From Clostridiales bacterium (GTDB lineage: Bacteria > Bacillota > Clostridia > Christensenellales > Aristaeellaceae): a DNA stretch of 38,377 nucleotides. The stretch spans positions 1 through 38,377 of the forward strand of contig JAAZBU010000021.1 of assembly GCA_012513645.1 (NCBI GenBank), written 5' to 3'. Position 1 is the stretch's first letter, and each line of letters begins with the position of its first letter. Under the pieces are notes generated by a model that saw nothing but the letters and a program-made list of their open reading frames with translations, ran no database searches and had not been told where the DNA came from. Positions 7,671 to 20,288 of this stretch are shown piece by piece. A program made the position numbers and the translations under genes.

Positions 7671-9032
7671 CTAAATGGCATCCGCCAACAGAAAATCGGT
7701 CAGCTTCATGATGCGGATGCCATCCTCCGTATGGGAAACGTCGCTGTGCAGGGCGATGACGAGCTTTTGATGGCTGTCCTGGGTGCGGCGCAGGGCGGAG
7801 AACTCGCGCTGCCTGGTTTGCTCCGATTGCATGTGTTCGGTGACCTGCAGGTAGCGCTTCTGATTTGGCTTGGTCGCGACAAAATCCACCTCTTTGTCGC
7901 CGATTTTGCCGATGGCCACATCCCACCCTTGACGGAGCAATTCAAAGTATACAAGGTTTTCCAGCGCGTGGCCCCTGTCCATGTCACGAAAGCCCAGGAG
8001 GTAGTTGCGCAGCCCGAGGTCCACAATATAGTATTTGCCAAGTGTTCGCAAATACTCTTTTCCCTTGATGTCATAGCGCTTGACATCATAAAACACGTAC
8101 GCCTCCGTCAGCGCGGCGACATAGGCCTGAATGGTCTGCACCGCAGGGGAACCCTTGCGGGAGCGGTCATCCAACATGCCCTCGCTGACCAGCGTGTTGC
8201 CGATGGAGCGCATGGAGGTATTGCTGCCGATGCTGTCAGCCAGAAACAGGATGATCTTTCGCAGCAGCAGCGGGTCGGTTATTCGCCGCTGGCCCCGGCG
8301 GGCCTCCCGCTCCAGGATATCGCGCATGACCACGGTGGCGTAGATGCCGTCCAGCAGCGTCATGGCTTTTTCCTGATCAAGGCCCACATCAGCCAACCCC
8401 GGCATCCCGCCGAAGGTGAGGTAGGATTGTAACAGCTCCTCAGGCGTGTACTGTTCGCCTGCGCTGTTCGTGATGTGCTTGCGCGTACCCCCGGAGGGGC
8501 TTTCTCGCCGGGCAACCGTGTAGCCGTGGAAATACAGAAACTCCTGAAAAGACAGCGGCAGCATGTTGATTTCGACATGCCGCCCGGCCAGGTAGGTGGA
8601 GAACTCGCCGGACAACAGATGCGCGTTGGAACCGGTGATGTAGATGTCGCAGTCTGTATCTACGCGCAGGGAGTTGACCGCGTCCTGCCAGGCCGGGATC
8701 AGCTGGATTTCATCAAAGAACAGGTAGGCACGCTTGCCCTGCGGCAATAGGCCTTGCACATGCTGATACAGCGCGGCGGCATCCATGCTGCGGTATTGCA
8801 TGGATTCAAAATTGAGCTCAATGATCTGATCATCTGCTATGTTTTGTTCGCGCAAATGCTGCGCCATCAATTTCATCAGGCTTGATTTGCCGCAGCGGCG
8901 AATGCCTGTCACGATTTTGACTGGCTCGGTATCCTGAAATGCAACCAATCTGTTGAGGTACAGATCGCGCCGCTTGAGCGCTGACTTGCCGGAGGCCACA
9001 ACATCACCTTCTTTCGATATAGAGAATAACAC
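7671..9032 (-). CDS. ATP-binding protein (AAA_14 + DUF4143 type)
   Basis: VKIVTGIRRCGKSSLMKLM Walker A, RAYLFFDEIQLIPAWQDAVNSLR Walker B, ITGSNAHLLSGEFSTYLAGRHVEINMLPLSFQEF, C-terminal nuclease-fold-like VDFVATKPNQKRYLQV. Confidence 0.9.
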   Translation of the reverse strand: MLFSISKEGDVVASGKSALKRRDLYLNRLVAFQDTEPVKIVTGIRRCGKSSLMKLMAQHLREQNIADDQIIELNFESMQYRSMDAAALYQHVQGLLPQGKRAYLFFDEIQLIPAWQDAVNSLRVDTDCDIYITGSNAHLLSGEFSTYLAGRHVEINMLPLSFQEFLYFHGYTVARRESPSGGTRKHITNSAGEQYTPEELLQSYLTFGGMPGLADVGLDQEKAMTLLDGIYATVVMRDILEREARRGQRRITDPLLLRKIILFLADSIGSNTSMRSIGNTLVSEGMLDDRSRKGSPAVQTIQAYVAALTEAYVFYDVKRYDIKGKEYLRTLGKYYIVDLGLRNYLLGFRDMDRGHALENLVYFELLRQGWDVAIGKIGDKEVDFVATKPNQKRYLQVTEHMQSEQTRQREFSALRRTQDSHQKLVIALHSDVSHTEDGIRIMKLTDFLLADAI

Positions 9033-9042
9033 AAAAATTGAA

Positions 9043-9084
9043 AAAATAAAAGTTTGTAGTATTCATGTTACAAACTTTTATTTT
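9043..9084. repeat. 16-bp perfect inverted repeat (10-nt spacer) upstream of the DUF4143 ATPase
   Basis: AAAATAAAAGTTTGTA-gtattcatgt-TACAAACTTTTATTTT. Confidence 0.85.
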
Positions 9085-9170: not shown

Positions 9171-10232
9171 TCAGCCCACCACGGCCTTGTGCACATACGG
9201 GCTGGTATACGCTTTGAGCAGCGCGCCGTAGCTGAAGCCGAACGTCACCACATCGCCCACCTCATAGCCTGAGGCGGCAGTCAGGTCCACAATCAGGTGG
9301 TCGCTGGAGGCGCCCAGCACCTGGATGCGCACATCCCGCGGGGTGAGGCCGTCCACGTCAATATCCTGCCGGCCGATCAGCACAATGCCCCGGCGCATAG
9401 GCCCCAGGTCCGGGAAGGACACCCGCTCGCCAAAGGCATTGGGGCCGGGGGAGCCGATGGGCCGGGACGGCTTGGTCTGCACCTCGCCCAGCACGGCATG
9501 GAGGGTGAATGCGTCCCGGTGCAAAAAGTCAAAGGCTTCGCCGGTGGCGGTGTCGCTGCCCAGCAGCATGCTTTCGCCGATGCGCAGGTGGTTGATGCCG
9601 GCGGGCACTTTCCCTTGCAGCAGCAGGCCCACGGTGCTTGAGTTGCCGCCCGATACCAAGGGGATGGGCAGGTCCAGCTCCCGGCGCAGCCAGGCGGCGA
9701 TCTCCACCAGGCGGCCCAGGTTGTCTTCCTGCGGGATGATGCCGCCAAAGCAGGTGAGGTTGACGCCCACGCCGTGCAGCGTGAGGCCGGGGGTATCCTT
9801 GACGGCACTGGCCGCGCGCAGGATCCCCTCGCGGTCGGTGTACATCAGCCCCTCGCGCAGGTCGCCCAGGTCCACCATCAGGATAACTTTGTGCTGCCTT
9901 TGCAGCGCCTGCGCCGCCTCGCCCAGGGCATGGATGGTGAGGATTTCGCTTTGCAGGCTGATGTCAGCATGCTGCACGATATCCCGTGCCTGGGCGGGAT
10001 CGCCGATGCGCAGCAGCAGCTTGGGCTTGGCTGTGTTGATGCGTGCCAGGTTTTGCAGGCGGCTGTCGGCAAAGCCGTCGGCGATGTCCGCCAGCGCGGC
10101 CACGATATCGGGCTGCGCGCCCACGCACTTGGTGACGGCGTAGTACTGGATGCCCGCCTTGCGGCACAGGCCGGCCAGATGGGCCGCGTTCTCGCGCAGC
10201 TTGCCCAAATCAGCCTGAATCATGGGATACAT
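9171..10232 (-). CDS. orr: Ornithine racemase (alanine racemase-fold PLP enzyme)
   Basis: MYPMIQADLGKLRENAAHLAGLCRKAGIQYYAVTKCVGAQPDIV...; GVGVNLTCFGGIIP; VSGGNSSTVGLL; last gene of the ornithine operon. Confidence 0.88.
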   Translation of the reverse strand: MYPMIQADLGKLRENAAHLAGLCRKAGIQYYAVTKCVGAQPDIVAALADIADGFADSRLQNLARINTAKPKLLLRIGDPAQARDIVQHADISLQSEILTIHALGEAAQALQRQHKVILMVDLGDLREGLMYTDREGILRAASAVKDTPGLTLHGVGVNLTCFGGIIPQEDNLGRLVEIAAWLRRELDLPIPLVSGGNSSTVGLLLQGKVPAGINHLRIGESMLLGSDTATGEAFDFLHRDAFTLHAVLGEVQTKPSRPIGSPGPNAFGERVSFPDLGPMRRGIVLIGRQDIDVDGLTPRDVRIQVLGASSDHLIVDLTAASGYEVGDVVTFGFSYGALLKAYTSPYVHKAVVG

Positions 10233-10243
10233 GGCGCCCTCCT

Positions 10244-11620
10244 TCACGGTTGTGCAAGAAAACTATGCTGCATCAGGGCCATGGCCGCCTGCGGGTGCTT
10301 GCGGCTGAGTACGCCCAGCGAGGCCATGATGTAGTGATGGTCGGTAAGCAGTTCTGCCTCCCCCGGCTTGGGGTAGAGCCACTTGCGCTGGGCGTTCATA
10401 TCGCGCAGCTGCGCCATGACGCGCTCCCTGCCGGGCAGGCGGGTCAGCGCGCCGCCGGTGGCGATGAGGTATTGAAGCTGCGTCAGGTCCTTGCCCTCGG
10501 CGATCTGCTGGCGGCCGCCCGGCAAAAATACGCTGCGGATGCTGCCCGCGTGCCGCCGCAGCGCCGTCAGCCCGGCCTCCAGCGCCAGGCGCTCGGCCAG
10601 CGCCTCCTGCTCGGGGGTGCGGGGGATGGGCTGCCAATCGGCCATCAGTGCCCGGGTGTCCGTGCCCAGCTCCCGGTCCAGCCGGTCCGTGCCCAGGGCA
10701 TCCAGCAGGTGAGCGGCGTTGATATACAGGCCCAGGTCGCCCTCCACGGTGCGCAGGTACAGGGGCTCGGGCCTGGTCTGTATGCGGGCGATCTCCTCGG
10801 ATTCCTCGCAGGCGCTGTGCACGTCGGTGGTGGCGCCGCCGATGTCGATGACGGCCAGGTTGCCCAGGCTGCCGTGCATCAGGCGCGCCATCTCCATCAC
10901 CGCGCCCGGGGTGGGCATCAGCGGCTGGGTCACCATATCGTACACATGGCGCATGCCCGGCGCCTTGACGATGTGGCGCTCAAACAGCATCTGGATGTGG
11001 CGGCGGGCGGGCTCGATGTTCAGGTCATCCAGCCGGGGGTAGACATTGTCGCAGATGGCAATCTCAAGCCCCGCTTGTTCAAACAGCGCGCGCACCTCGC
11101 CTTGGTTTTGCACGTTGCCGGCGTACAGCGTGGGGATGTCCTGCATGCCCAGCGCGGCAATGGCCCGGGCGTTATATAGCGCGGTGTCCCGCTCGCCATA
11201 GTCGGTGCCGCCGGCCAGCAGGATGAGGTTAGGATGCAGTTCACGCAGGGCCTCAAGGTCGCTCTCGCGCAGCATGCCCGCCGTCACCTGGCGCACCACG
11301 GCCCCCGCGCCCAGCGCGGCCGCCTGGGCCGCGCGCACGGTCATGTCGTACACCAGGCCGTGCACGCTCATCTTGAGGCCGCCTGCGGCCGAGCTGGTGG
11401 CGAACAGGTCGGTGTATTGCAGCTCCTGCGCGCCCAAAGCGGCCTTCAGGTCGTCAATGGCGGCCTGAAGGCCCAGGCGCACATCGCCCTGGGCCACGCT
11501 GGTGGCGGCGCTTCCCTGGCCGATGAAGCGGGGGCTGTCCCCGTGCAGGCCGTCAAAGGCGTTAACCAGCGTGGTTGTGGAGCCGATTTCGGCCACCAGG
11601 GCATCGATGCGCAGCGTCAC
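10244..11620 (-). CDS. GlmL/MutL-like ornithine-degradation protein (ASKHA ATPase-like)
   Basis: VAEIGSTTTLVNAFDGL, NLAVIDIGGATTDVHS, LLAGGTDYGE; position between oraE and orr. Confidence 0.88.
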   Translation of the reverse strand: MTLRIDALVAEIGSTTTLVNAFDGLHGDSPRFIGQGSAATSVAQGDVRLGLQAAIDDLKAALGAQELQYTDLFATSSAAGGLKMSVHGLVYDMTVRAAQAAALGAGAVVRQVTAGMLRESDLEALRELHPNLILLAGGTDYGERDTALYNARAIAALGMQDIPTLYAGNVQNQGEVRALFEQAGLEIAICDNVYPRLDDLNIEPARRHIQMLFERHIVKAPGMRHVYDMVTQPLMPTPGAVMEMARLMHGSLGNLAVIDIGGATTDVHSACEESEEIARIQTRPEPLYLRTVEGDLGLYINAAHLLDALGTDRLDRELGTDTRALMADWQPIPRTPEQEALAERLALEAGLTALRRHAGSIRSVFLPGGRQQIAEGKDLTQLQYLIATGGALTRLPGRERVMAQLRDMNAQRKWLYPKPGEAELLTDHHYIMASLGVLSRKHPQAAMALMQHSFLAQP

Positions 11621-13833
11621 TGCTGCCGGGCCCGGCGCTTTTTAACCAGCGCGGTGGCGACATGGATGCCCTTGCTGCCGCGGCCAAAGCCCTCGTCGGC
11701 CCCGGCCTCGCGCGCCAGTTCAGGCGTCACCTGTGTGCCGCCGGCCAGGAAAATCACCCGGTCGCGCACGCCCATCTCCCGCGCCAGGCGGTCGATGAGG
11801 GCGATGTTTTTGTAGTGGATGTTGTCGTGGCTGATGATGGTGCTAGCCAGAATGCCGTCGGCATTCAGCTCGATGGCCGCGCCCACCAACTTTTCGGGCG
11901 GCACGCTGGTGCCCAGGTAGTGCACCTCTATGCCGTACTTCTCGATGCCGCCGTGCTTGATGTCGATGATCTCGCGCAGGCCGACGGAGTGCTCGTCGTT
12001 GCCCACGGTGCCGGCCACCACGCGCAGGGGCCGCTGCTCGATATCCTGGCGCAGCTCATCCTCGCTCAGGGTGTCGGGCGGCTTGGGCACCACCAGCTCG
12101 TTCACGTTGAGGGCAAAGGGCACATGCCCCTTCATCTCGATGCGCGTGCCTTCATGCGGGTGCATGACCTCGCGGGAGATCACCTCGCAATCCGTCAGCC
12201 CCATGCGCCGGCCGGTCTCCAGCGCCGCGGCCTCGGCCAGGGGGGCCTCCACCGGGAAAAACAGGTTGAGGTGCACCAGCCCATCGGCCAGCCACTCCAT
12301 CTCGGGCTTCAATTGCCCGGCGCCCGGCTGGCGGAAGGCCTCGTTCTCGGCCATGCGCACGTGCACATTGTCCTCCTCGTCCAGCTCGTCGATGAACTGG
12401 ATGAGCTCGGGCCTTTCCAGCGTGCAGCCGCCGATGAGGCTGGCCGGGTCCTCCTGGGCGGCTTCATCGTACTGGGCCACGTTGTTGTAGCCGAAGTGGG
12501 CGGTGACAGGCGCCATGTAATCGGCAGCGCGCTTGATCACCGTGCCGGCGCCGATGCCGCCGTCAGCGCGGCGCACAATGCCGTCGCCGTTGCGCTCGGG
12601 GTACAGCCCGCTGTCTACAAAGAAGCCGGCCTCCACCGCGGCGAAGTAGCCGCCGGCGGCCAGCATGTCCTCCAGAAACAGCACCGCGCGCTCCTTGAGC
12701 TCGCGCGCCTTGTCGCGCAGGTAGCCCTCGTCCTTGAGGCCCACCATGTCCATCAGGCCGTCCAGGCCCACATAGGTCTGCTTGGCGGTGTCGCAGGCTT
12801 CAATATTATAGATGTGCCAGGGCACGTTGCGCCCCTCGTCGGGGGTGATGGTGCTCTGGATGTCGGCGCTGGTCAGCTTTGAGATCAGCATGTTGAGCAC
12901 ATGGGTCACCGTGGCCTCGCGGGTGGAGGACTCGATGTACTTGGTGTTCATCTGCGCGCGCATGCGAAAGCCGGGGAACAGTTCGCGCAGCGCCACGGCG
13001 TAGGGCAGATCGGTGTGTACGCAGGGGGCGGGAGTGGCGGTGGGCGGCACGGTGCTCAAACAGATGAGGTCGCGCGGCACGCCGCACCCCAGGGAGAATT
13101 GGGCGTTGATGGCGTGCTGCACCATGAGCTCGGGCATCACCTTCCAGGCGTCGCGCGCGGTGGCGTTGGCGTTGTGCGCGCCGTCTATCTGGGCCATCTG
13201 GCTCCAGGCGATCAGGCGCTTGGATTCGCAGGCGTCCACAAAGCTGCGCACCATGTTGATGTTGCGGTAGATGACGTTGTACTGCGGGTCCTGATGGCAG
13301 CCGTTGACGCCCTCCTCGGCGAACATCACGGCGATGTCGGGCCCGGCCACGCCGGATACATAGCTGTGGTAGTTGATGGGGCGGCCCACCTCGTCCTCGA
13401 TGAGGTCCAGCGCCTTGCGCTGGGCGCGCACCTGCTTGCGGCTGATGGCTACGCCGCCGATGCCCTGGGGCGTGCCCTCGATCAGGCCGTCGATGTGGCT
13501 CTGCCCGGCGGTGCGGATGACCATGATGTGGTCGGCCCCGTGGTGGGCGGCCATACGCATGCGGCGGATATCATCCTCAAACCGGCCCGAGGCGATCTCG
13601 GTGGTGATGACCGGCAGGGGCTGGGGGTCGATGTTTTCAAAGTTGTGCGCGGGCGGCAGGGGCACCGAGGCCTTTAAAGGCTGGGAGCAATCCTGATAGG
13701 TGAAGGGGCCCATTTTGAGGCCGGGCACGGGCTTGCGCCAGGTCCAGCCGCGGCGGCGGGGGCGGTACTGATCCAGGTCCTTCAAAATCTCGCGGATGTC
13801 GATCTGCTGATCGGGCTTTAACTGATAGCTCAT
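11617..13833 (-). CDS. oraE: D-ornithine 4,5-aminomutase, large (E/beta) subunit, adenosylcobalamin- and PLP-dependent
   Basis: 738 aa; DIREILKDLDQYRPRRRGWTWRKP...; cobalamin-binding DxHxxG motif as DEHSVG; paired with oraS. Confidence 0.93.
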   Translation of the reverse strand: MSYQLKPDQQIDIREILKDLDQYRPRRRGWTWRKPVPGLKMGPFTYQDCSQPLKASVPLPPAHNFENIDPQPLPVITTEIASGRFEDDIRRMRMAAHHGADHIMVIRTAGQSHIDGLIEGTPQGIGGVAISRKQVRAQRKALDLIEDEVGRPINYHSYVSGVAGPDIAVMFAEEGVNGCHQDPQYNVIYRNINMVRSFVDACESKRLIAWSQMAQIDGAHNANATARDAWKVMPELMVQHAINAQFSLGCGVPRDLICLSTVPPTATPAPCVHTDLPYAVALRELFPGFRMRAQMNTKYIESSTREATVTHVLNMLISKLTSADIQSTITPDEGRNVPWHIYNIEACDTAKQTYVGLDGLMDMVGLKDEGYLRDKARELKERAVLFLEDMLAAGGYFAAVEAGFFVDSGLYPERNGDGIVRRADGGIGAGTVIKRAADYMAPVTAHFGYNNVAQYDEAAQEDPASLIGGCTLERPELIQFIDELDEEDNVHVRMAENEAFRQPGAGQLKPEMEWLADGLVHLNLFFPVEAPLAEAAALETGRRMGLTDCEVISREVMHPHEGTRIEMKGHVPFALNVNELVVPKPPDTLSEDELRQDIEQRPLRVVAGTVGNDEHSVGLREIIDIKHGGIEKYGIEVHYLGTSVPPEKLVGAAIELNADGILASTIISHDNIHYKNIALIDRLAREMGVRDRVIFLAGGTQVTPELAREAGADEGFGRGSKGIHVATALVKKRRARQQ

Positions 13834-14195
13834 TTTGCCCCCTCCTGAAAGAGTGCGGCCGCCTCGTCCAGCAGCTCGCCCCGGCTGAGCGCCAGGCCGG
13901 CTTCCCGCAGGGGCAGCCCGCGCTCGCGGCTCAACTTGTACACCACATGGCCCGCGCCGTGGCTGAGCAGCCCGCGGTCCAGGCAGGCGTCGGCAATGGC
14001 CTTGGCCTCCAGCGAGTTAAAGCCCATGCGCAGCAGCACGCTGCGCTCGATGGCCGGGCTGGTGTTTTCGCGGCCGGCCTGCAACAGCGGGTCGGTCAGC
14101 TGCTCCACCAGACTCCAGAAGCGCTGGTGCAGCTGCTCGTCGCTCAGGCCCTTCAAATGCGCGCCGCGCTGGGCGTAGTCGTCCGTGCGTTTCAT
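13830..14195 (-). CDS. oraS: D-ornithine 4,5-aminomutase, small (S/alpha) subunit
   Basis: 121 aa, RTDDYAQRGAHLKGLSDEQLHQRFWSLVEQLTDPLL; directly upstream of oraE with ATGA overlap. Confidence 0.9.
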   Translation of the reverse strand: MKRTDDYAQRGAHLKGLSDEQLHQRFWSLVEQLTDPLLQAGRENTSPAIERSVLLRMGFNSLEAKAIADACLDRGLLSHGAGHVVYKLSRERGLPLREAGLALSRGELLDEAAALFQEGAK

Positions 14196-15592
14196 GGCTC
14201 CTCCTCACAAGCGGCGCGTACAAAGGCTTGGTCCGCGCGCGTTTCATCCATCAGAAAGGCGATATCCTCCGGCCGCACCGGGCCCGGGAAGTGCTGGCGG
14301 GCGTTGCGGATCAGCGAGCGGCGCATCTGCCCAAGGTCGGCCGGCTGTGCTTCAATCAGCTCGGGCGACTGGGGCAGCACAATGCTTTGGCCGGGCGCCT
14401 CATCGCGGGGGTTGCCAAAGCGGATGTCGATGCCCCGGCTGCGGGCGAAGGCCAGTTGGGCGTTGTGGTGCTTGCCCGCGCCGGTGTACTCGGTCTCCTG
14501 CACCACGATGCATTGTTCGCTTGGCATCTGATGCGCCAGGCTGAAGGCGGCCGCCAGGCTGGTGTTGCCGGCGGGGCCGCGCTCCATGCCCTCCAGGCGG
14601 GACAGCGCCTCCGTCATGAAGAATACCTCGCCCTGGGACACCGTGTGGTAGCTATGCAGGTAGCGCAGCGGGCGGCCCGCGCTGCGCGGCACATCCGAGC
14701 GGTCGGGCCAGGTGCTGAACGGCATGCCGAAGCCCGTGTGCCCGGTGGTGAAGCTCTTGCGGTTGAACTGGCCGTCGCTGGCCATGTGCAGCCCATGTAG
14801 GCTGACGCTGGCCGCAGCTACCGGGGTATCACAGTTTTCCTTCAGCAGGCCGCGGGCGGTGCCGGTCAGGTTGCCGCCGCCGGCGTTGGTGGCGATCACC
14901 AGGTCGGGGTCGCGCCCCTCCCGCGCGCGGAACTGGCGGGCGATCTCCGCGCCCAAGGTTTCGATGCCCAGAATGGCATAGGGCGTGTACAGCGAGGCGT
15001 TGAAGTAGCCCGTGTCCTCCAGCAGCCGCAGGAAGACGTAGAACAGCTCCGGCCCTACCGTCAGCTGCAATACCTCGGCGCCAAAGGCCTCGCACTTGCG
15101 GGCCTTTTCCACAATTTCGGGCTGGCCCACGCCCTGGGAGTCAAAGCACTCCTGCACCACGATGCACCTGAGGCCGGCCTTGGCCGCGCAGCTGGCCACC
15201 GCAGCACCATAGTTGCCGCTGGTGGCGGTGACCACGCCCTTGTAGCCCATGCGGCGGGCCATCTCCACGCTGACGGCGGCACGCCGCGCCTTGAAGCTGC
15301 CTGAGGGGTTGCTGGCCTCATCCTTGACGAAGATGCGGGCGCCCATGCCGGGCGCGGCACAGGAGCCGGCCAGGGCGGTGATGTTTTTGAGCTCCACCAG
15401 CGGCGTGTTGCCGATGGCGTAGTCCCGCTGGATGGCTTCGATCTCCTGCAGGCTAAGGCCGGGGGCGGCCATCATGCCCTCGTAGTCAAAGGCGATGCCG
15501 CCCGATTCAAACCGGCTGTAATCCATGCCCACGGCGGCCTTCATGATCTCGGGCCGGCGGGCCATGACGGCCTGGTAGCTGTTGTCACGCAT
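14192..15592 (-). CDS. ortB: 2-amino-4-oxopentanoate thiolase subunit OrtB (PLP fold)
   Basis: MRDNSYQAVMARRPEIMKAAVGMDYSRFE..., FVKDEASNPSGSFKARRAAVSV PLP-lysine motif. Confidence 0.92.
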   Translation of the reverse strand: MRDNSYQAVMARRPEIMKAAVGMDYSRFESGGIAFDYEGMMAAPGLSLQEIEAIQRDYAIGNTPLVELKNITALAGSCAAPGMGARIFVKDEASNPSGSFKARRAAVSVEMARRMGYKGVVTATSGNYGAAVASCAAKAGLRCIVVQECFDSQGVGQPEIVEKARKCEAFGAEVLQLTVGPELFYVFLRLLEDTGYFNASLYTPYAILGIETLGAEIARQFRAREGRDPDLVIATNAGGGNLTGTARGLLKENCDTPVAAASVSLHGLHMASDGQFNRKSFTTGHTGFGMPFSTWPDRSDVPRSAGRPLRYLHSYHTVSQGEVFFMTEALSRLEGMERGPAGNTSLAAAFSLAHQMPSEQCIVVQETEYTGAGKHHNAQLAFARSRGIDIRFGNPRDEAPGQSIVLPQSPELIEAQPADLGQMRRSLIRNARQHFPGPVRPEDIAFLMDETRADQAFVRAACEEEP

Positions 15593-15890
15593 GATGGTCA
15601 CCTCCGTACAGGCGGTCCCACACCATATTGGCCACCTGACGCAGCTCGGGCACATTGTCGCCAAAGCTGTGGGAGTAGCTGAGCCCATCTTCGATCAGCG
15701 TGCCCTGGGCCAGGCGGCCTGCGGCGGTGCGCACGGTGACGGTGTCGCCTATCTGGGCATCCTGGGTCAGGTAGCCCTTGACCCACATCTCCAGCGGCAC
15801 CCGGGCCGTATCCTCGGGCACCTGGGGGGCGCGCTGCCCGGGGGCGAGCGCTACGCTGTGGATGCGCACCCAGTCTCCCTGCTTATACAT
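15585..15890 (-). CDS. ortA: 2-amino-4-oxopentanoate thiolase subunit OrtA
   Basis: MYKQGDWVRIHSVALAPGQRAPQVPEDTARVPLEMWVKGYLTQDAQIGDTVTVRT; upstream of ortB. Confidence 0.9.
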   Translation of the reverse strand: MYKQGDWVRIHSVALAPGQRAPQVPEDTARVPLEMWVKGYLTQDAQIGDTVTVRTAAGRLAQGTLIEDGLSYSHSFGDNVPELRQVANMVWDRLYGGDHHA

Positions 15891-16944
15891 CTGTTGTATC
15901 CCTCCCAAAGGCGATGGCGCGGTAGTCGCCCATCACGCATCGCGGCACGGGCATGTCCAGCATGGTTTTGAGGCCGGGAGCGGCCGCCACTACAAAGGGC
16001 AGCATGTTGCACGCCATGGCGATGGTGCCCAGGCCGCCGTCCACCTCGGGCTTGATGGCCATGCTGACGGGCGGCGTGCCGGTCAGGGTGACGTAGTCGC
16101 CCGTATCCACGCCGGCCAACTGCGGCTCGATCTGCTGGGGGTGCAGCAGGCTGATCTTTTCCTCGCCCTGCACAGTCGCCTGGGCGGTCATGTTGACGCC
16201 GGCGATGTGGCCCTTGGGCGCGAAGCCGTGGGGGCTTTTGCGGTCCACCTGGGTGACGATGGGCAGCATCTGCTGCTCAAACCCATCGTAGCGGATGCCC
16301 AGCGCGTCGCCGATCATGGCGGCCGACTCGGCAAAGCCCACATGCCCGGCCAGCGAGCCATCCTGCACGCCGCGGTCAAAGTCTTCCACCGTGATGCCGA
16401 TGCCCTGCTCCACCATGACGGCCTGGCCAAAGGGGCTGAGGCTGTTGATGCGCTCGCAGCGCACGTGCTCCACCCGCGTCATGCAGCCGGAGAGGAACAC
16501 GGCCAGCAGGTCCATCATCATGCCGGGGTTGATGCCCGTGCCCAGGATGCTGACGCCGTTTTCGCGCGCGGCGCGGTCCATCTGCTGCGCCATCTCGGGG
16601 GACTGGGCCTCTGGCCAGGCCATCTCCTCGGCGATGGTCAGCACGTTGACACCCGCCTGCACCACCTGCATGACCTTGGGGAATACCTCCTTGACAAAGG
16701 AGTTGGTGGCAATGACGCAGATGTCCGGCTTTTTAGAAAGCAGGGCAGCGATATCGCCCGTGACCGTTGCATCGGGCCGGGTACCCCGGGGGGTACCCAG
16801 CAGGGCATAGATGCTCTTGCCCTGCTTATCGGGGTGGGTGTCACACACGCCGATGATGTCTACGCCCTGCCGCCCCAGCAGCACGCGGGCGATGCCCGAG
16901 CCCATGGCCCCAAAGCCCCACAGGGCAACCTGTACGTTGCGCAT
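15883..16944 (-). CDS. ord: 2,4-diaminopentanoate dehydrogenase
   Basis: MRNVQVALWGFGAMGSGIARVLLGRQGVDIIGVCD Rossmann start; first gene of the ort/ora operon. Confidence 0.92.
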   Translation of the reverse strand: MRNVQVALWGFGAMGSGIARVLLGRQGVDIIGVCDTHPDKQGKSIYALLGTPRGTRPDATVTGDIAALLSKKPDICVIATNSFVKEVFPKVMQVVQAGVNVLTIAEEMAWPEAQSPEMAQQMDRAARENGVSILGTGINPGMMMDLLAVFLSGCMTRVEHVRCERINSLSPFGQAVMVEQGIGITVEDFDRGVQDGSLAGHVGFAESAAMIGDALGIRYDGFEQQMLPIVTQVDRKSPHGFAPKGHIAGVNMTAQATVQGEEKISLLHPQQIEPQLAGVDTGDYVTLTGTPPVSMAIKPEVDGGLGTIAMACNMLPFVVAAAPGLKTMLDMPVPRCVMGDYRAIAFGRDTTDV

Positions 16945-17041: not shown

Positions 17042-17070
17042 ATTTTATCATACTATTGCGCCGATGTATA
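17042..17070 (-). promoter_or_regulatory. Predicted ord operon promoter (-35 TATACA, 17-bp spacer, -10 TAAAAT)
   Basis: Minus-strand TATACA (17070-17065), 17 nt, TAAAAT (17047-17042); the -35 lies in the outer half-site of the operator. Confidence 0.55.
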
Positions 17071-17101
17071 GACGGGATGCATATACAGACCGCATATACA
17101 T
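17064..17101. promoter_or_regulatory. Candidate operator between ord and rocB-like gene (four ATGTATA/TATACAT-type half-sites)
   Basis: ATGTATAGACGGGATGCATATACAGACCGCATATACAT; same half-site order as the arcA palindrome, with 13- instead of 14-bp spacing. Confidence 0.6.
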
Positions 17102-17211: not shown

Positions 17212-18852
17212 ATGGGGCATCACAGGGAGAAGCGCATTGAGCAGATCATGGCGGACTATGTAGGCGCGGCCACCCACACGGCGACAGAGCTGGAGAACAA
17301 CAACCGGGCGTTCTTCGAGCGCTACTTTGCGTCGGTGGATTACCTCAGGCAGCATCCGCAGCTGTGCGGGTTTTACCCCATTGCGGGCGACGCGCTTGGA
17401 CGCTGCGTGCCATGGGCGCTGCGCAAGGGGCAGGGTGCACAGACGGTGGTGCTTATCCACCACTCGGACACCGTGGATACCGACGATTACGGCGCGTTAA
17501 AGCAATGGGCCTACAGCCCGTACGAGCTGACGCAGCGCTATCACAATGGTGAGGCCGATCTGGATGCCGCCAGTGCCGATGACCTGCACAGCGGAGAGTG
17601 GCTGTTTGGCCGCGGCGTGGCGGACATGAAGGGCGGCGCCGCCATCCACATGGCGCTGTTTGAGGAATACGCCGGGGAGGCGGATTTTTCGGGCAACGTG
17701 CTGCTGCTGGGCCTGCCCGATGAGGAGAACCTGTCCGCCGGCATGCGCAGCGCCGTGCACCTGCTGGGCGAACTCAAGGAAAAGCACGGCCTGCAATACA
17801 GCCTGATGCTGAACATCGAATCTCAGGAGCGCGATGAGCCGAACGACATGCGGGTGTACGACGGCTCGGTGGGCAAGCTGATGCCCATCTGCTATGTGCG
17901 CGGCAAGCTGGCGCATGTGGGGCAGGTGTTCAGCGGGCTCAACCCCATCCATATCCTGTCCGAGATTGTGACGGCCACCGAGCTGTGCCCCGACTTTATC
18001 GAGCAGGTCGGCAACACCGAGGTGCCGCCGCCCGCCTGGCTGTACTTGAAGGACCGCAAGGAGGTATACGATGTATCCCTGCCGCTGGCCGCCGCCGGGT
18101 ACATGAGCGTGCTGACGCTCAAGAGCTCCGCGCGCGAAGTGATGGCGCGCGTGCACGATTTGGCGGCAGGCGCCTTTGAGCGCGTCATCGCGCGCGCCAA
18201 CCGCGGCTACCGCGTCTATATGCAGGACGAGCAGGCGACCTTGCCCTGGAAGGTCAATGTGCAGACATACGATCAGGTGTATCAGCAGGCGCTGCGGGAC
18301 GCCGGGGACGCCCTGCCGGAGGCCCTGGCGGATTATCAGGCCATTGCCAAGGAGCAGATTGCCCGGGGCACGCTCAGCATGGCGGAGGCCGCCTTCCAGA
18401 TGATCGAGCGCACGGTGGCCCACCTCAAAAGTGCGGAGCCGCTGGTGGTGCTGGCCATGTCGCCGCCCTACTATCCGCATGTCCACAACAGCATGCTGCC
18501 AGACGGCGCGCCGCAGATCACCGGGCTGCTCGAGTACCTGGCGCAGTATACCGGGGAAAAGCTGAATAGCAGCTTCCATGTCAAGAGCTTTTACACCGGC
18601 ATATCCGACCTCAGCTACGCGCTGTATGAGCGCAATCTGGAAAACGCGGACTACATCCGCGCCAACATGCTGCTGTGGGGCGAAATCTACGACATCCCGC
18701 TGGATGAAATCCGGGATCTGTCCATCCCGGTGCTCAACATCGGCCCCTGGGGCAAGGATTTGCACAAGTATACAGAGCGCGTGCACATGAAGGATTTGCT
18801 GGAGCGCGTGCCTGCGCTGGTGGACGCGGCCATTAGGCATTTGCTACAGTAG
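17212..18852 (+). CDS. rocB: M20 family metallopeptidase, RocB-like (arginine utilization protein family)
   Basis: LIHHSDTVDTDDYGALK, GRGVADMKGGAAIHMALFEEYA, LLGLPDEENLSAGMRSAV; RBS gaggagg upstream. Confidence 0.85.
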   Translation: MGHHREKRIEQIMADYVGAATHTATELENNNRAFFERYFASVDYLRQHPQLCGFYPIAGDALGRCVPWALRKGQGAQTVVLIHHSDTVDTDDYGALKQWAYSPYELTQRYHNGEADLDAASADDLHSGEWLFGRGVADMKGGAAIHMALFEEYAGEADFSGNVLLLGLPDEENLSAGMRSAVHLLGELKEKHGLQYSLMLNIESQERDEPNDMRVYDGSVGKLMPICYVRGKLAHVGQVFSGLNPIHILSEIVTATELCPDFIEQVGNTEVPPPAWLYLKDRKEVYDVSLPLAAAGYMSVLTLKSSAREVMARVHDLAAGAFERVIARANRGYRVYMQDEQATLPWKVNVQTYDQVYQQALRDAGDALPEALADYQAIAKEQIARGTLSMAEAAFQMIERTVAHLKSAEPLVVLAMSPPYYPHVHNSMLPDGAPQITGLLEYLAQYTGEKLNSSFHVKSFYTGISDLSYALYERNLENADYIRANMLLWGEIYDIPLDEIRDLSIPVLNIGPWGKDLHKYTERVHMKDLLERVPALVDAAIRHLLQ

Positions 18853-18932: not shown

Positions 18933-20150
18933 CTATGCCCTCATCAGCGGCATGCTCATGCATCGGGGGCCGCCGCGCCCGCGCCCCAGCTCGCTGCCGG
19001 GCACCTCGATGGTTTCGATGCCGTGGTCGCGCAGGATGGCGTTGGTGATGGTGTTGCGGTCGTAGACGATGACCTTGCCCGGTGCCACGCACAGGGTGTT
19101 GCTGCCGTCGTTCCACTGCTCGCGCTGGGAGGCAATGCTGTCCATGCCGCCGCAGCGGATGAGGGTGACCGGGCCGCCGCCGATGTTGCGCTGGAGGATC
19201 CGGTCAAAGGGGCCGGTCTGCTCCTGCACCTGCACGGTGCCCTTGGCCCCGGGCGTCAGCCGCCAGGCGCGCAGCGTGGGCAGAATGCCCGGGTGCACGG
19301 TGAAGGCATCGCGGTCCACCTGGGTGAACACTGTATCCAGGTGCATATAGGCGCGGATGTTGGGGATGTCGATAGCCAGCACCGCCTTGAAGCCGCTTTG
19401 CTCGTCGGCGAACAGCCTTTGCGCCAGCAGCTCCACGGCCTCGGGCGTGGTGCGCTGGGACAGCCCGGCCGTCAGCAGCCCGTTATCCAGGCACAGCAGG
19501 TCGCCGCCCTCGATGCTGAAGGGCACATCCGGGTCGTAGTACATGGGCACGCGGCCCACATAATCCAGATGATAGTTGAGGATGTAGTTGCCGTAGATGG
19601 TCTCCCGCTGGCGGGAGGGGGCATGCATGCGGCTGATGGCGGCGCCCGAGCCCAAAATAGCAAAGGGATCGCGCGTGAAGTACAGGTTGGGGATCGGGTC
19701 CAGTATAAAGCGCGGCTCGTCGCTGAAGGCGTTGGCCAGCGGGTGGTGGGCGGGGCGCAGCAGCTCCCGGTCGGTCACGCCGGACATGGTTTTGAGCACC
19801 AGGTCCTTCTCGTCCGGGATGTCCATCAGCAGGGCAAACAGCTCCTTGCGGTAGTAGCGGCCCACATCGCCCGAGCGATCAATGAACTCCGTGATAAACT
19901 GCCTGCGCATATCCTCCGACGGGCGCAGGGTATCGGCTACCCGGTCGGACAGGTAGACGACTTCCGCGCCATATCGGCGCAGGGTGTCGGCAAAGGCATC
20001 ATGCTCCCGCTGGGCGCCTGACAGGTAGGGGATGTCATCAAACAGCATGCGGGACAGGTGCCCGGGCGTCAGCTGTTCAAGCTCGGTGCCGGGGCGATGC
20101 AGCAGAACCCGGCGCAGCGGGCCGATTTCACTACGGACGGATAGTTTCAT
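18933..20150 (-). CDS. arcA: Arginine deiminase
   Basis: [50 protein letters not shown], catalytic C-terminal Cys in [14 protein letters not shown]. Confidence 0.96.
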
Positions 20151-20188: not shown

Positions 20189-20217
20189 AGTATAGCATGG
20201 CACCGACAAAATGTATA
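20189..20217 (-). promoter_or_regulatory. Predicted arcA promoter (-35 TATACA, 17-bp spacer, -10 TATACT)
   Basis: Minus-strand TATACA (20217-20212), 17 nt, TATACT (20194-20189). Confidence 0.6.
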
Positions 20218-20252
20218 CGCCAAAATGTATATACATTTTGGCGTATACATTT
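20209..20252. promoter_or_regulatory. 44-bp perfect palindrome, candidate operator of arcA
   Basis: AAATGTATACGCCAAAATGTAT|ATACATTTTGGCGTATACATTT, 22-bp arms, no spacer. Confidence 0.8.
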
Positions 20253-20259
20253 GCATTTG

Positions 20260-20288
20260 TTGAATCCCTTTTACCACTATGTTAAAAT
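20260..20288 (+). promoter_or_regulatory. Predicted promoter of the GNAT/hydrolase/murF/ddl/murC run
   Basis: TTGAAT-N17-TAAAAT. Confidence 0.6.

Follow-up and report, generated by a model that had tools for sequence, protein, structure and literature searches.

A putative four-half-site operator overlaps the predicted promoters of arcA and of a separated ornithine degradation cluster in a member of the Christensenella-like clade

The clostridial ornithine degradation cluster (ord-ortAB-oraSE-orr) is the closest described match, in its genes and in their order, to the gene run analyzed here. It differs from our locus in that here arcA precedes the cluster (arcB does so as well in relatives), a rocB-like gene splits it, and both parts share an operator. 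In other Firmicutes, arc operons are controlled by ArgR/AhrC. The ARG boxes at arginine deiminase operons likewise lie at an arginine catabolic target and have TGNAT-type half-sites, several of them near the promoter, whereas the elements described below are 10-bp dyads repeated every 13-14 bp, or TATRCA-N4-TGYATA, and not TGNAT-N4-ATNCA. Operators of the HutC subfamily of GntR regulators are a further point of comparison: the subfamily consensus is GTMTAKAC, extra half-sites are reported near GntR sites (PMC4494728), and the Bacillus TreR box is TTGTATATACAA (PMC11356801). Such operators share with ours the central dyad GTATATAC and the additional outer half-sites, but here the dyad is often missing in relatives, the outer half-sites match no worse than the central ones, and the third base varies. 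In the literature searched, the operator dyad was found only in the TreR box and in a Phd-Doc crystal oligo, and no regulator was described for an arcA-led, rocB-split ornithine cluster.

The window, that is, the whole stretch of 38,377 nucleotides that we analyzed, contains the features collected in Table 1. Among the genes after ord, NCBIfam models NF040741, NF040743 and NF040744 passed their cut-offs; Ord, OrtB, OraE and Or-4, which lie in a single gene run, all scored above curated cut-offs, and ortA and oraS were named from gene order and from homology common to the L009 locus and others. The Orr homologue (9171-10247, minus strand) scored 399 bits against NF040742, under the cut-off of 480, and its role as an ornithine racemase is therefore likely rather than certain. 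The rocB-like gene gave only sub-cut-off DapE/ArgE matches in NCBIfam and carries GAGGAGG 5 bp upstream of its ATG. Farther along, an inverted repeat, AAAAGTTTGTAGTATTCATGTTACAAACTTTT, was seen at 9050-9082 upstream of an AAA_14/DUF4143 gene (7671-9032, minus strand); it is a possible terminator or operator.

Table 1. Positions of the genes, putative operators and predicted promoters in the window.
Feature	Coordinates	Strand	Basis or composition
Genes after ord: ortA, ortB, oraS, oraE, GlmL-related Or-4, orr-like racemase	9171..15908	-	
ord, 2,4-diaminopentanoate dehydrogenase	15883..16944	-	NCBIfam NF040740, 471 bits, cut-off 400; Pfam PF19328
Predicted ord promoter	17042..17070	-	consensus scan, 9/12
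ord/rocB operator	17064..17101	.	TGTATA-N7-TGCATATACA-N7-TATACA
RocB-like M20-family hydrolase, divergent from ord	17212..18852	+	Pfam PF01546
arcA, arginine deiminase	18933..20150	-	NCBIfam NF002381, 464 bits, cut-off 414; Pfam PF02274
Predicted arcA promoter	20189..20217	-	consensus match
arcA operator	20212..20249	.	TGTATA-N8-TGTATATACA-N8-TATACA, perfect palindrome; letters TGTATACGCCAAAATGTATATACATTTTGGCGTATACA

Read in the direction of arcA, the window shows a gnat-like gene pointing away from an operator, arcA on its other side, then rocB in the opposite direction, another operator, and finally ord and the genes that follow it. The usual order in relatives is arcA-arcB-ord-ortA-ortB-oraS-oraE-GlmL-like-orr, and in most of them ord is preceded by the end of arcB, with no operator there. 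In the window the position of arcB between arcA and ord is filled by the divergent rocB and its operator, giving ord its own predicted promoter. A search for arcB by homology, in the window and in the L013 locus, found no homologous stretch. Because relatives run ord inside one arcA-led cluster behind an operator, the coupling of arcA and ord appears to be older than the window genome.

The sequence-only reading had described four half-sites at each of the two operators, with a spacing of 13 bp at ord and 14 bp at arcA, and this layout was confirmed, coordinates included, when the window was re-read. The ord operator (TGTATAGACGGGATGCATATACAGACCGCATATACA, 17065-17100) has TGTATA-type half-sites starting at 0/13/17/30, and can be read alternatively as a row of three 10-bp units, one every 13 bp, TGTATAGACG / TGCATATACA / CGCATATACA; the half-sites at arcA start at 0/14/18/32. 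A consensus scan also agreed with the claim that the gene-proximal TATACA lies 17 bp from a -10 element, TAAAAT for ord and TATACT for arcA. At ord, the -35 hexamer TATACA (17065-17070) coincides with the outer half-site and is followed, after the 17-bp spacer, by an extended -10, TGA-TAAAAT (17042-17047). At arcA, TATACA (20212-20217) again coincides with the outer half-site, and the spacer of 17 bp leads to the extended -10 TATACT (20189-20194), with TG before it. Each was the sole promoter-like match on its coding strand. The proposed identity of promoter geometry thus applies to ord and arcA and does not extend to the rocB strand. There, the letters 17 bp beyond TATACA (17095-17100) are GGCTGA, which is no -10, and the promoter scan at the ord/rocB operator found no promoter on that strand. 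Just past the arcA operator begins a promoter-like TTGAAT-17-TAAAAT (20260-20288, plus strand) for the divergent gnat-like gene, a stretch that is unchanged in genome G068 (L009).

The half-site is markedly over-represented in the window, where TGTATA occurs 15 times against 2.5 expected, 7 of the 15 lying inside the ord and arcA operators; the specific ord core pattern was observed once against 0.00 expected. The strict four-half-site pattern matched twice in the 2.0-Mb assembly of the same organism, at arcA and at ord, and only once more in a family sample of 200 genomes that includes this one, at the orthologous arcA of G068. The reversed-pattern control gave 0 matches. When further members of the regulon were sought by genome-wide scans with the strict and everted patterns, nothing appeared beyond arcA and ord except scattered matches that look like chance. 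An order-wide scan of 396 genomes for the everted element (TATRCA-N4-TGYATA) plus a -10 returned 17 matches, of which 3 lay at arcA, all in one genus, and the remainder were unrelated and apparently due to chance. Within this group the motif is thus specific to arcA, and it is not universal in the order.

G068 belongs to the same genus (its Ord is 90% identical) and carries an orthologous arcA with the same gnat-abhydrolase-murF neighbours. Between its arcA operator and that of the window, 22/22 half-site bases are kept, compared with 8/16 linker bases (Fisher p = 2.6e-4). We also collected 71 ord loci and read the regions upstream of arcA. The everted TATRCA-N4-TGYATA was found there in seven more distant relatives (L011, L014, L015, L016, L021, L022 and L071), and arrays of TGNATATNCA-like units were found in L010, L012, L013 and L024. 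TATRCA stands exactly 17 bp from TAnnnT in 12 of the 13 arcA promoters of the window and relatives, the exception being L024, and it does so at ord as well; in the arcA promoters of this type, 30-42 nt separate the element from the arcA ATG. The retention of TATACA could be owed in part to its role as a -35. The arcA operator is absent from the rumen relatives L017-L020 and L023, whose cluster begins at arcB. Upstream of arcB these five loci have in common a conserved promoter sequence of another kind, CCCTTGTCAGCGAAGGGAAAAGATGGTATGATG-like, possibly that of another regulator. The comparison of upstream regions proposed in the sequence-only reading shows kept or related operators at arcA, whereas in most relatives ord has no operator of its own; since relatives have no separate ord promoter, the ord operator has no ortholog for comparison.

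Both layouts may follow a common scheme, a row of 10-bp TGNATATNCA units with a 13- or 14-bp period, of which the genus type would keep the outer halves and the everted type the inner halves. Such a scheme makes a single factor for both layouts possible without proving it; because the layouts differ, that one factor reads the everted (N4) and the four-half-site types is an assumption.

Could these elements be something other than sites for a regulator of the arcA and ord genes? A terminator scan flagged the arcA element, which forms a perfect inverted repeat of 44 nt, as would be expected if the palindromes were transcribed RNA hairpins or terminators and not protein sites. In G068, however, the linkers are changed and no longer pair although the half-sites are intact, suggesting that the hairpin is not the conserved feature; moreover, the element would be transcribed from neither of the flanking predicted promoters, since it lies upstream of both. 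We consider this explanation extremely improbable. Hardly more credible is the idea that TATACA serves just as a -35, with the remaining half-sites arising by chance. It accounts for the almost invariable coincidence of TATRCA with the -35, but the half-sites upstream of the -35 are selectively conserved and no other genome of the 200-genome sample has the strict pattern.

If the elements are protein sites, two known kinds of regulator are candidates. We read by eye the ORFs lying up to ~6 kb from the cluster in 19 relatives, and larger surrounding regions in G204 and G210, and saw no regulator next to arcA or ord; G210 does carry a Crp/Fnr-like gene ~6 kb past orr, which we judged not relevant. 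The lack of any other linked regulator favors ArgR/AhrC, reading an unusual arrangement of half-sites at arcA and ord. Also in its favor, the operator half-sites are TGNATA (third base T 30, C 13 and A 2 times), a form that agrees with the TGNAT half-site of ARG boxes, ArgR was found in 3 of the 4 sister genomes (G029, G068 and G093), and the recognition region of the clade's ArgR, VTQATVSRDIKEL, resembles that of solved Bacillus-type repressors. In G029, which is 90% complete, ArgR is present although argG was not found, and the L024 operator holds one full TGNAT-N4-ATNCA (8/8), the only such case. The operators of the window, however, reach at best 6/8 (arcA) and 7/8 (ord) of this sequence, half-site positions of 0/13/17/30, 0/14/18/32 or everted with N4 are unlike an ARG box, and no ArgR turned up in the assembly of the window genome (78% complete). 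Furthermore, G093 and G207 have canonical ARG-box-like sites adjoining transporter genes of the lysine/arginine/ornithine type, from which the clade's ArgR seems to use normal geometry. These sites are suggestive only, because the search gave eight matches in eight genomes, slightly more than the roughly three that by our own estimate would arise by chance. We judge ArgR an unlikely regulator of arcA and ord. The palindromes TGCATATTTATTCA (L119:1501-1514) and TGCATAATAATGCA (L121:1501-1514), beside lysine/arginine/ornithine-type ABC binding-protein genes, are probable targets of the clade's ArgR. The argG promoters were tried as a yardstick for the ARG box, argG being above cut-off in 2 of the 5 genus genomes, and showed no clear ARG box save TGCATAATAATGCG in G114. 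A GntR-type repressor bound to the central GTATATAC dyad, with the outer half-sites as the accessory half-sites of that family, seems somewhat less likely again. GntR genes are present in 8 of the 8 genomes tested, and GTMTAKAC fits GTATATAC, which is the core at arcA, the ord core being GCATATAC on the plus and GTATATGC on the minus strand. Yet about half of the relatives have no central dyad, many having the everted TATRCA-N4-TGYATA in its place, and the GT is not kept, the third half-site base being frequently C and in some cases A. Of the GntR genes, one is common to the six genomes read and has truB- and fhs-like genes as its neighbours; its upstream region holds no such operator, no strict site was found at it, and no GntR gene was seen among the ORFs beside the cluster. 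This GntR-type gene, with HISRTPLREAF, follows the truB-like gene in L148, L152, L141, L151, L147 and L134, with the fhs-like gene next in most of those loci, and is a candidate regulator of one-carbon metabolism.

We regard as fairly probable a model in which the operator overlaps the promoter and an unlinked multimeric regulator represses arcA and ord, the second operator keeping the split pathway under common control. Such a DNA-binding regulator would read TGYATA/TATRCA half-sites grouped into 10-bp units that resemble TGNATATNCA and recur every 13-14 bp. TATACA, the half-site nearest the gene, would double as the -35 hexamer; because the -35 is itself a half-site, binding should block RNA polymerase, and repression is thus the simplest model. 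Arginine or ornithine is the probable signal that would free the operator and end the repression of ord and arcA. We infer protein binding, repression and the ligand alike from the DNA, and the operators may instead serve activation. In relatives, one arcA operator would serve arcA-arcB-ord-ortAB-oraSE; in the window genome, arcB would have been replaced by a divergent rocB with an operator copy that now drives ord, so that co-control was kept. The L013 locus, which is without arcB, has a rocB (61% identical) divergent from a 13-bp-period operator that precedes arcA-ord. rocB with a divergent operator is therefore seen in two arrangements, and we infer that a rocB-operator unit was moved or inserted, by which ord would have gained its own copy of arcA-type control.

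The sequence-only reading had proposed one undescribed regulon of arginine deimination, ornithine degradation and rocB. The shared operator is a real feature, better supported by the conservation at arcA than the window alone indicated, and on this comparative evidence the predicted regulon holds for arcA and the ord cluster, which share an operator type overlapping the -35 and which relatives keep as a single run behind one arcA operator. For rocB, there is the divergent operator only, in the window and in L013, and no promoter of the same geometry; any promoter of rocB would have the operator upstream of it. Membership of rocB is plausible, and it may respond to the operator. That the regulon is undescribed is compatible with the literature searched. 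More tentatively, the regulator could be a new one, neither ArgR nor a standard GntR protein, which reads TGNATATNCA arrays of 13-14-bp period and controls the whole route from arginine through ornithine to acetyl-CoA/alanine in the Christensenella-like clade, the insertion of rocB plus operator having restored co-control after the operon was split.

These results provide a defined, testable cis-element for the pathway from arginine deiminase to ornithine degradation, the regulation of which is hardly known in uncultured Clostridia, and the operator can serve as it stands as bait in finding the regulator. They point to an operon that was split while its shared control would have survived by means of a second operator.
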